From positions 992,001 through 1,056,000 of the forward strand of contig NZ_OZ026474.1 of NCBI RefSeq assembly GCF_964020005.1: a stretch of DNA of 64,000 nucleotides. Reading direction: 5' to 3'. Both the position numbers and the translations under genes were made by a program. Positions 746 through 23,516 of this stretch are shown here, in pieces (the first letter of the stretch is position 1; each line of letters opens with the position of its first letter). This DNA comes from Spiroplasma endosymbiont of Atherix ibis. GTDB lineage: Bacteria > Bacillota_I > Bacilli_A > Mycoplasmatales > Mycoplasmataceae. A model generated the notes under the pieces. That model was not told the DNA's origin. It did no database searches and saw only the letters and a list, made by a program, of their open reading frames with translations.

Positions 746-1857
746 TAATGGTGCCCTCCTTTTGCAACTTCTGGATATTTAGCAAAAAATTCTTTTGCTT
801 CATTATATTGTTTTTCAAGATCTGGAGTTTTTTGAGCATATTGAAAATTAAAAATATCTTCTAAATCATATGATTTATTTGCTTCAGCTCAATCAAATTC
901 TGCTCTAATAAATTCATCTTGTTCTATATCTAATTTCTGTTGTTTTTTGTCATCTCATATGCCTTTTGAAATTAAGAATTTTTTCATTCTAATTAATGGT
1001 TCTTTAGTAAGAGCTTCTTCAAACTCTGATTTTGGTCTGTATATATCTGGATTATCTGAAGAAGAGTGAGCTCCCAATCTATAAGTATCACATTCAATAA
1101 ATACAGGTCCTTTTCCACTTCTTGCATATTCTACTGCCTCTGAAGCAACAGCATATACTGCCAATAAATCATTTCCATCAACTTTAACTGAAGGAATTCC
1201 TGATGCAATACCTTTTACAGCAATATTTATTGATTTTGTAGATTTTTTATAAGGTGTTGATATCGCTCATTTATTGTTTTCACAAATAAATACAACTGGT
1301 AATTCATGAATTTTAGCAAAGTTCATTGCTTCATAAGTTTCTCCTTCACTCATTCCCCCATCACCAGTAGTAGTTAAAGCAACTCCTCCAGTACCTTTAT
1401 ATTTTTCAGCAAAAGCAATACCTGTTGCTTGTGAAAATTGAGAACCAATAATAATATTTGGTGGTAGTGAATTTACACCTTCAGGTGACTGACCTCCATA
1501 TTCATTTCCCATTCAATAAAGCATAATATTTCTCATTGGCATTCCAACACTTAATCATGCTGCATTATTTCTATATCCTGAAGCAAATCAGTCTTTTCCT
1601 TTAATAATTGGTAAAGTATATCCTATTTCTGATGCTTCTTGCCCTGTTGATGAAAGAAATGATAGTAATCTTCCTTGTCTTTGCGCTTTATTTTGAAAAT
1701 CATCTTGTCTTCTTGAAATATTCATTAATTTGTAAGCTTCTATCATTTGTTTATCTGTCATTTCTGGCATTAATTTTTCATTTAGTATTTTTCCATCTTT
1801 ATCCACAATTTGAACTATTTCGTCTTTTAATGGATCAAATTTTCCTATAAATTTCAT
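745..1857 (-). CDS. pdhA: Pyruvate dehydrogenase E1 component, alpha subunit
   Basis: Alpha chain of E1, 370 residues, the usual length. The thiamine diphosphate motif is clear: GDGGMSEG followed about 25 residues later by ENNKW. The phosphorylation-loop region YRLGAHSSSDNPDIYR is also recognisable. The start ATG is preceded by GGAGGTAAAA, and that site overlaps the stop codon of lplA, so lplA-pdhA-pdhB forms one transcript. This places the lipoate-attaching ligase directly before the enzyme complex that needs lipoate. Several tryptophans are encoded by TGA. Confidence 0.97.
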
Positions 1858-17847: not shown

Positions 17848-18300
17848 TTATTTATCTCTATTAACTCAATTAAATATCTTTTTTATAGATTCTTTTCTGA
17901 TATATTCTTTTGCAGCTCCTGATAAATTTAAAATTTTACCATTTTTTGAATATAATGATTTTACCTCTGTATTATTTATTTTTTGAACTGCATCTCACAT
18001 AAGATATGATTTTTTACCTAATACATTAAATTCAGATCTAAATGGTTTTGAAATGACTTTACTTTCTGTTTTAGTTGTTAAAGGTACAACCAATAATATA
18101 TAACCACCATTTTTATCTTCTATAAAATTAGAAAGAACTATTGCGGGTCTTGATTTTAAAAAACTACAATTAAAATTACCATTTTCATTTTTATTACTAG
18201 ATATATTAACTTCTAAATTTTTCTCTAATTTTTTAAAAATTTTGTTTGAGTTAATTTTATGCATAATAATTACATCATATTTTTTTATTTTTATACTCAT
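17848..18300 (-). CDS. PemK/MazF-like protein (putative toxin endoribonuclease)
   Basis: 150 residues starting MSIKIKKYDVIIMHKIN. The family core is readable: KYDVI at the start, SRPAIVLSNF (50-59) and ILLVVPLTTKTESK (69-82), then SYLMWDAVQKIN. This matches the RPxIVLSN ... VPLTT pattern of type II MazF/PemK ribosome-dependent or free mRNA interferases. An insertion of about 25 residues separates the first strand from the RP motif. No conventional antitoxin gene is next to it on the upstream side; instead a structured leader with three hairpins lies directly before it. Toxin activity is inference from the fold motifs only. Confidence 0.65.
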
Positions 18301-18410
18301 TTTTAAAAAAACCTCTATTAAATAAAATCTCCCTTTTTCAGGGAGGACTTGCCGCTACGGGCATAAAAAGGAGGTTATTATCACAAAGATAAATGCCTCT
18401 AAAAAAATAA
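18301..18410 (-). ncRNA. Structured leader or small RNA before the MazF-like gene
   Basis: Three stem-loops in series, unusually GC-rich for this genome. Hairpin A pairs GAGG/CCTC (18371-18374 with 18396-18399) and TTATC/GATAA inside it. Hairpin B is TGCC/GGCA (18350-18363). Hairpin C is CTCCCT/AGGGAG (18329-18345) followed on the minus strand by ATTTTATTT, which looks like a weak intrinsic terminator. Several CCTCC stretches could pair with the GAGG ribosome site of the gene. It could be a cis-regulatory leader, a separate RNA or an RNA antitoxin; I cannot tell which. Confidence 0.45.
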
Positions 18411-18629
18411 TAACATATATTTACTTTTAATAAAAAAATTTAGTTATTTAAATACCTATTTATAAAACTTTTTTCTAATTTATATAAAGTTTTATTTATA
18501 TTGCACTTAAAATTATTGATTTCTTTATCTAATCAAATTACACTATTATTTTTAAATTATTTTTTTCTGCAAAATTTAATCTTATTTTTTCAGTTTATGC
18601 ATAAATAAAAACTTTATATGTTTATTTTT
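18411..18629. other. AT-rich gap
   Basis: About 220 bases between the leader RNA and the membrane protein. No frame reads as protein; it must contain the promoter for the minus-strand leader, possibly a TATGTT hexamer near 18420. Confidence 0.35.
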
Positions 18630-19388
18630 TTATTTCTTTTTTTTAGAAATTAATCTTAAAATAAAAAAATAAAAAATATTTATAGATATAAATAAAATAT
18701 GCATAAAAATAAAAAATATAAGAATTAAAAAAATAAATTTACCAATTTGTTCGAAATATTCTGAAATGCTATTTATAGAAGCTCACAAAGGTGGTGAATA
18801 AGGATAAATTATTTCTATTGGTAAATCTATAAAAATTGGATCTAAACTATACATAATTAATCTTACAACTAAAAATAAAGTATAACTTCAAGGATAAATT
18901 AAATATACTCATATATATTTTTTAAAATATGAACTTATTGTAATATTCAATAAGTTAACGTGTTTAACACAATAAAAAATCATTAAACCAGGAGAAATAA
19001 TATGAAAAAATATTGCAAAAGTTAAATCTAATTTCAAAATAGATTTATTACTAATTATAATAGATGGCAATAAAATAAATGTATAAGTTATAGCAGTAAC
19101 TGTTATATAGCTTGTAATTGATAATAAAATAATTTCACTTTTGCAAGTTTTTAAACTTTTCCTATAAAAAACAGATAATAAAAGAAAAATAGCTACAATA
19201 AAATTACTTTGATAAGTAAAAAAACTAAAAAATTGCCCTTGAAAGACGACTGGAGAAAATGGAAAATTAATATTTCCTAATCAATATTCATTTATCATAT
19301 GATCAAAATAAACATAAACTAAACAAAGAAAAATTGAAAAACTTAATAATATTTCAAAATAAAACCATTTATCTTTTCATTTATTCAT
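18630..19388 (-). CDS. Pr6Pr-like integral membrane protein
   Basis: A complete 252-codon frame that is only visible with TGA as Trp (four in-frame TGA). It starts MNKWKDKWFYFEILLSF and has about six hydrophobic segments. Conserved-looking features are FSFFTYQSNFIVA, FFHIISPGLMIFYC, YLIYPWSYTLFLVV and IIYPYSPPLW. This pattern of prolines at membrane edges resembles the Pr6Pr family of six-helix proteins of unknown function seen in mollicutes and firmicutes. TGG is also used for Trp. The ribosome site is weak (GGGAT). Confidence 0.7.
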
Positions 19389-22362: not shown

Positions 22363-22647
22363 ATGGCAAAACTTGGTCAAAAATTTAGTAAATATAGTGA
22401 AGAATTTAAAGTAAATGTAATACTTTATGCAAATGAAAACGGTGTAACAAAAGCTTATAAAAAATATAAAGTGCCAATGGGAACAATTGGAACCTGACAA
22501 TCAATCTATAGAATAGATAATAATTTATGCATTAATACAAAATCTAAAGAAGATAAATCAGAATTAGAAAATTTGAAGGAGAAATATGAATCCTTAAAAA
22601 AGTCTTTAACCTCATGAGAAACTACATGTCTAAAGAGGAAAAAATAA
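22363..22647 (+). CDS. IS3-family transposase OrfA
   Basis: 94 residues, beginning MAKLGQKFSKYSEEFKVNV. It is the helix-turn-helix DNA-binding part (EFKVNVILYANENGVTKAYKK) followed by a leucine-rich coiled region (ELENLKEKYESLKK). AAGGAAG precedes the ATG. The slippery heptamer AAAAAAG at 22596-22602 is in the right phase, and after a -1 slip the frame runs open into OrfB, as in IS150-like elements. OrfA alone usually acts as a regulator; the OrfAB fusion is the active transposase. Confidence 0.8.
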
Positions 22648-23516
22648 ATTTTATTAAATCAAGAGATTATAAAACAACAATTAAGGAACTACTCGAGTTA
22701 CTAAATTTAAAAAAATCCTATTGAGATAAATATAAAAATCATTGTTTCATAGATAAAAAAAATAAATTTGATTATATAAAATACGATATTTTAAAAGTAT
22801 TTAATGATAATAGAAAGAAGTTTGGATATAGGCAAGTTTCAAAAGAACTATCTCATAAATATTCAACATATATAATTCGAAAAGTAATGCGAGAAAATAA
22901 AATTATAGCTAGATTTGCTAAAAATCAATTAAAAAAAGCAAATAAAAGAAAACTACAAAATTCAAATGTAGAATATCCAGATCTTGTTCAAAGAAAATAT
23001 AGTGCTGTCAAAGAAAAATACAAAATTTTATATACAGATATTACTTATTTAATTTGAAAAGGAAAGAAAGCTTATAAATCAACAATAATCGATGGATTCA
23101 CAAAAGAAGTTATTTCATCATATATTTATTATAAAATGTCTGCAAAATTTGTAATTGCTACTTTAAAAAGAGCAATTAATGTTATTAAAAAAATAAAAGA
23201 TCCGAGTGGAATAATTATTCACTCAGATCACGGAGTTCAATACACAAGCAAAACGTGAAAAAATGTTTGTGATTCGAACAATTTAATTATATCAATGGGA
23301 GCGAAAAAAACATGTGCAGATAACATTGTTATTGAAAGTTATCACTCTTTACTTAAAAAAGGAACAATTCATAATAACAAATATGAATCACTTGAACATT
23401 ATATAACTGATGTTATTGAATGAGATAAATGATATAACTCAAAAAAATCTCAAAATAGTTTTTTAAATATAGAATGAAAAAATAAAGATGTCTTTTATGG
23501 CACAATAAATATATAA
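22626..23516 (+). CDS. IS3-family transposase OrfB (DDE integrase domain)
   Basis: 296 residues from the ATG in the overlap, more if made as the OrfAB fusion. The DDE triad reads YTDITYL, HSDHGVQYTS and NIVIESYHSLLKKG, with the last Glu about 35 residues after the second Asp, as the family requires. The N-terminal HTH_21-like part KKFGYRQVSKELSHK is also typical. Frame is intact with TGA for Trp, so the element could still be active. Confidence 0.85.

Follow-up and report, generated by a model that had tools for sequence, protein, structure and literature searches.

We analysed a 64,000-nt stretch of the genome of the Spiroplasma endosymbiont of Atherix ibis (NZ_OZ026474.1, positions 992,001 to 1,056,000; hereafter, the window), in which a short structured leader RNA precedes a gene of the PemK/MazF superfamily. 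The genome comprises 1.07 Mb and uses the Spiroplasma genetic code. We propose that the leader RNA and the gene form a type-III-like toxin-antitoxin module, in which the RNA would be the antitoxin of a MazF-type toxin, and we put the probability of this reading at roughly 0.55. The first-pass annotation of the locus had mentioned an RNA-controlled toxin but preferred a cis-acting riboregulator. The comparison across genomes shifts the balance to the RNA-controlled toxin: the RNA accompanies the toxin gene in several genera, once on a plasmid, covaries, exists without the toxin gene, and outlasts broken toxin genes. In the open-access literature, we found no such system described for Spiroplasma or mycoplasmas.

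The leader (18320–18400) is encoded on the minus strand, and an 82-nt segment folds into three hairpins and no more (z = −3.05, compared with dinucleotide shuffles), as had been annotated at first from the letters alone. The order is hairpin P1, a pyrimidine linker, hairpin P2, and an intrinsic terminator, which stands 29 nt ahead of the toxin ATG at 18300 (coordinates are summarized in Table 1). The leader first described at this position is therefore real, with two corrections: the minus strand encodes both the gene and the RNA, and TGA is read as Trp in the toxin frame (code 4). The last hairpin also proved terminator-like, as claimed. In a scan of 2.2 kb it was the only terminator-like site (0.3 expected), and among the 55 open reading frames (ORFs) of at least 100 amino acids in the window, the toxin gene alone has such a hairpin ending 0–45 nt before its ATG. 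The evidence from the fold of a single sequence is weak by itself because the z value of the minus strand is only −1.6 with wider flanks; conservation decides. Searches of Rfam gave no match at the gathering level and only chance matches under it, and no tRNA or tmRNA was found.

Among 60 genomes of the family, a protein search detected the toxin in 10. Two marginal matches (E 0.003–0.005) were excluded, which left eight genomes and nine loci, including both copies of the window's own genome. P1, then P2, and then a terminator-type hairpin stand ahead of the toxin gene in these nine loci. The toxin homologues at the other Spiroplasmataceae loci are 31–51% identical, and their leaders have the same order with compensatory base changes. 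The z values of the leader folds at the loci ranged from −2.8 to −4.7, except for one copy (L038) at −2.0. The pair of leader RNA and toxin gene was found in several genera, and one locus is carried by an 11,138-bp plasmid of Spiroplasma taiwanense CT-1 (NC_021832), whose annotation calls the toxin gene hypothetical. This plasmid toxin (L096; 2110–2916, minus strand) has a C-terminal extension with CxxC-type cysteines that none of the other toxins has. Profile searches in the order (320 genomes) and the class (395 genomes) turned up nothing more than distant MazF-like proteins. A DNA search of the leader against 20 congeners returned only the two own copies and noise, a single-protein query of GTDB contigs gave no relatives, and viral contigs gave none.

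We examined covariation in an alignment of seven leaders. The P2 and terminator pairs were 90% standard, compared with 51–59% when the pairing was slid by one base. Both sides change in 7 of the 10 pairs, as against 2.3 in shuffles, and none of 500 shuffles reached 7. The P1 sequence differs at every locus yet always forms a stem. The cognate P1 arms totalled −69.9 kcal/mol and the swapped arms −37.2 kcal/mol, with 0 of 20000 permutations as good, and the P1 segments folded better than shuffles at each locus (p 0.004–0.03); because the P1 arms were defined by the folds, both tests are biased towards this result.

The covariance search across relatives that the first-pass annotation had suggested recovered the covarying RNA. 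A model of the linker, P2, and terminator, trained on seven sequences, gave eight strong matches in 317 genomes of the order, namely the seven training loci and a new copy in G058 (E 5.8e-9). With a five-sequence model, the top matches in their own genomes were the plasmid locus that had been left out of training (E 4.6e-4) and the G058 copy (6.8e-7); the two G052 copies were recovered with weaker values (0.03 and 0.12). Weak matches in G054, G029, G010, G003, G023, G318, and G201, which lack the three-hairpin arrangement with a toxin, were regarded as chance.

Several copies of the RNA lack an intact toxin gene. The whole unit occurs a second time in the window's own genome (about 780 bp, 90% identity); in that copy the toxin frame has an in-frame stop and the RNA is intact. 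In G003 the RNA is likewise intact and the toxin gene is broken, the 5′ end of its frame being shifted. The G058 copy (L089, G058:C1:162156-162211) has no toxin gene and is flanked by a cobalamin-adenosyltransferase-like gene and rplJ; in the sister genome G057 the gene order is unchanged, but the RNA is missing. The second G052 copy (L091, G052:C3:49937-49997) shows the full P1-P2-terminator topology with no toxin frame. No convincing toxin remnants were found beside the toxin-less RNAs of G058 and G052. Such a pattern would be expected of a dangerous protein and an RNA that does no harm or protects, though it is not proof.

In regards to the toxin, the protein of the window matched Pfam PemK_toxin with E = 0.0011 and 19.6 bits, which is under the Pfam cut-off of 23.1 bits, and five of seven family members matched it (best E = 3.9e-6). 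The toxin profile matched MazF in hhalign (E = 1.6e-6), PemK/MazF was the sole name given by the family searches, and the R-P-A and P-L-T-T/S motifs are present as in MazF/PemK. In Foldseek, the AlphaFold2 model (pLDDT, the predicted local distance difference test, 80.5) matched MazF-mt1 about as strongly as CptN (CptN at rank 2, E 3.4e-4). The Z scores were about 11 for MazF and 10.0 for CptN, and the CptN alignment covers more residues (116). An extra helix after the first strand (residues 18–28) is predicted in the model. Sequence searches of the PDB gave no true match, including none to CptN in the profile search, and PADLOC gave no match. Because the profile matches MazF and the predicted fold matches MazF-mt1 and CptN, the toxin is probably a ribonuclease of the MazF superfamily.

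We infer the following mechanism, from the RNA excess through toxin binding and neutralisation to the ribonuclease activity and its cut site. The promoter would start transcription at the 5′ base of P1, and the terminator would stop most transcripts at a length of about 80 nt, giving a small structured RNA. Occasional read-through would produce the mRNA of the MazF/PemK-fold ribonuclease, so that the order of promoter, short RNA, terminator, and toxin would yield RNA in excess and little toxin, as it does in type III systems (PMC5086642). The excess small RNA would then bind and block the toxin, with the single-stranded UCCUU linker between two hairpins probably sitting in the substrate groove as an uncut or cut mimic. 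An AT-rich promoter-like stretch does lie upstream of the three hairpins on the minus strand. A −10 hexamer with 5/6 matches stands 4–6 nt ahead of the chosen P1 5′ end in 7 of 9 loci (own second copy left out; Fisher p = 0.013), evidence that is weak because the region is AT-rich; the G034 locus has a perfect TTGACA-17-TATATT promoter.

The linker contains UCCU in 7 of 10 loci, compared with 1.8 expected after shuffling (p = 0.0002), in a test chosen after the motif was noticed, and UCCUU in 6 of 10. In these species the 16S rRNA terminates with GGAUCACCUCCUUUCU, and UCCUU is the core of its anti-Shine-Dalgarno tail. MazF-mt3 cleaves U/CCUU (PMC12274833). The enrichment, the 16S tail, and the MazF-mt3 cleavage together suggest that the linker may occupy the substrate groove of the toxin. 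A bolder form of the proposal, that a MazF-family ribonuclease is held by a single non-repetitive RNA showing a copy of the 16S anti-Shine-Dalgarno tail, placed between its two hairpins, as an active-site decoy, would define a new class, MazF being otherwise always held by a protein; we regard this form as doubtful.

Several results weigh against an RNA antitoxin. Searches of the leader RNA found no tandem repeats, whereas genuine ToxIN loci of Bacilli do show them, and the absence of repeats had already led the first-pass annotation to argue against a classical type III locus. The RNA consists of three nested helices, and the analysis, which covered nested pairs only, demonstrated no pseudoknot. 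The G034 and G039 loci of one genus have a clear P1, but their P2 has diverged and their terminator lacks the U run, and the covariance models gave no match there. The toxin has no profile match to ToxN (probability 0.1), and the toxins for which an RNA antitoxin has been proven are, to our knowledge, all members of ToxN, CptN, or TenpN. The late choice of the UCCU test belongs on the same side.

The main rival is that the leader is a cis-acting attenuator that only sets read-through, P1 plus terminator competing with an antiterminator formed by the P1 5′ strand and the terminator 5′ arm, with the toxin otherwise neutralised or non-toxic. The terminator is very near the toxin ATG, and cognate pairing of the two antiterminator strands was better than swapped pairing (p = 0.02), so part of the earlier preference for a riboregulator retains support. 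However, the ordinary P1 helix is far better supported (0/20000), two RNA copies stand without a toxin gene and with other genes downstream, no riboswitch or leader of Rfam matches, and the conservation points to no ligand or sensor. We consider the attenuator unlikely, though the strongest competitor. An antiterminator of the linker and the terminator 3′ arm was rejected (p = 0.40). The linker, with its CCUCC/UCCUU, might instead pair with the toxin Shine-Dalgarno (SD) sequence and control translation, in cis or in trans as a type-I-like antisense RNA. The pairing of CCTCC with GAGG annotated initially is possible in single loci (−2.3 to −8.4 kcal/mol for cognate linker:SD pairs), and the minimum-energy fold with flanks joins the linker to the toxin start region. 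Cognate pairs were, however, no stronger than swapped ones (p = 0.42), and coevolution of linker and SD was rejected; such a linker sequence pairs with any SD, and the toxin-less G058 copy retains UCCUU. Translational control is improbable.

The MazF-like sequence of the toxin would also suit a conventional type II MazF that has lost its antitoxin gene or has it elsewhere, with an autoregulatory leader that is cut by the toxin itself. Searches with MazE (PF04014) gave nothing above the cut-off in nine genomes and matched in 9 of 14 control genomes, and no small partner ORF beside the toxin gene is common to the loci, although an antitoxin of some unrecognised type may exist. The initial description of a PemK/MazF-type gene without a protein antitoxin upstream agrees with these searches and with the profile match, and the type II explanation is the least probable of those considered. 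The neighbours vary by locus (transposases, a phosphotransferase gene, phage-like genes, rimP/nusA, and a plasmid lipoprotein), and the leader RNA is the only partner of the toxin seen as common to the loci. A degenerate coding fragment of obscure origin lies upstream of the promoter in both own copies (window 18430–18555; the second copy in L002). The idea that it is a lost antitoxin was set aside because the fragment is missing at every other locus.

The module, read as an RNA antitoxin with its toxin, was compared with known systems. Type III loci are laid out as promoter, RNA, terminator, and toxin (PMC5086642). The module has this layout, with a Rho-independent terminator between the RNA and the toxin gene whose U run is lacking in G034/G039. 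We leave it outside type III because it has no tandem repeats and no ToxN toxin. CptIN of Eubacterium rectale (PDB 4RMO) shares the order of RNA, terminator, and toxin, the toxins are close in length (155 amino acids for CptN and 150 here), and the predicted model belongs to the same fold class. CptI works as a single RNA unit, one repeat alone having full antitoxin activity (PMC4627078). In contrast, CptI is a tandemly repeated 45-nt pseudoknot, whereas the present RNA is one P1-linker-P2 unit with no shown pseudoknot, and its toxin has no sequence match to CptN. The type II toxins MazF-mt1, MazF-mt3, and S. aureus MazF resemble the toxin in sequence and predicted fold; here, however, a conserved RNA and terminator take the slot of MazE, and the toxin has the added predicted helix. 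ToxIN/AbiQ have the RNA-terminator-toxin layout and plasmid occurrence in common with the module but differ in the toxin profile and the RNA repeats.

If the proposed RNA antitoxin is real, RNA antitoxins would extend beyond the three known type III toxin families without a need for tandem repeats, and a MazF toxin could switch from a protein to an RNA antitoxin. The module would give direct evidence on the interconversion of types II and III. Modules with an RNA antitoxin would also be new to the Spiroplasma lineage, which is wall-less and gene-poor; there they could help to keep plasmids stable or restrict phages.

Table 1. Features of the leader RNA and toxin gene, in window positions.
Feature	Position	Strand	Basis
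Predicted extended −10 box TGtTATTAT (hexamer TATTAT)	18407–18412	minus	sequence; would place the start at about 18400, the P1 5′ base
Hairpin P1 (outer GAGG/CCUC, inner UUAUC/GAUAA; 18399–18371 in the fold)	18371–18400	minus	fold; arm-swap test
Pyrimidine linker AACCUCCUUUUUA, with UCCUU; the CCUC in it overlaps the 3′ arm of P1	18364–18375	minus	UCCU enrichment
Hairpin P2 (UGCC-CGUAGC-GGCA)	18350–18363	minus	conservation, covariation (U-A, A-U, G-C; C-G to U-A)
Intrinsic terminator CUCCCU-GAAAA-AGGGAG (hairpin 18345–18329), tail AUUUUAUUU	18320–18345	minus	fold, terminator scans
Toxin ribosome-binding site AGAGG	18312–18316	minus	sequence
Toxin gene, 150 amino acids, PemK/MazF superfamily	17848–18300	minus	Pfam, profile, predicted fold

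Near the module, the window contains an IS3-type transposase frame pair (22363–23516) and, upstream of the module, a gene for a Pr6Pr-like membrane protein that scores under its cut-off (18630–19388, minus strand). Outside the family, a solitary MazF-like gene (L050 in G068, from another family of the order; 1381–1776, minus strand) matched PemK_toxin with E 1.3e-4. It is preceded by a GC-rich terminator-like hairpin with eight T that ends a few bases before the ATG, and this layout may have arisen there independently, as a second case.
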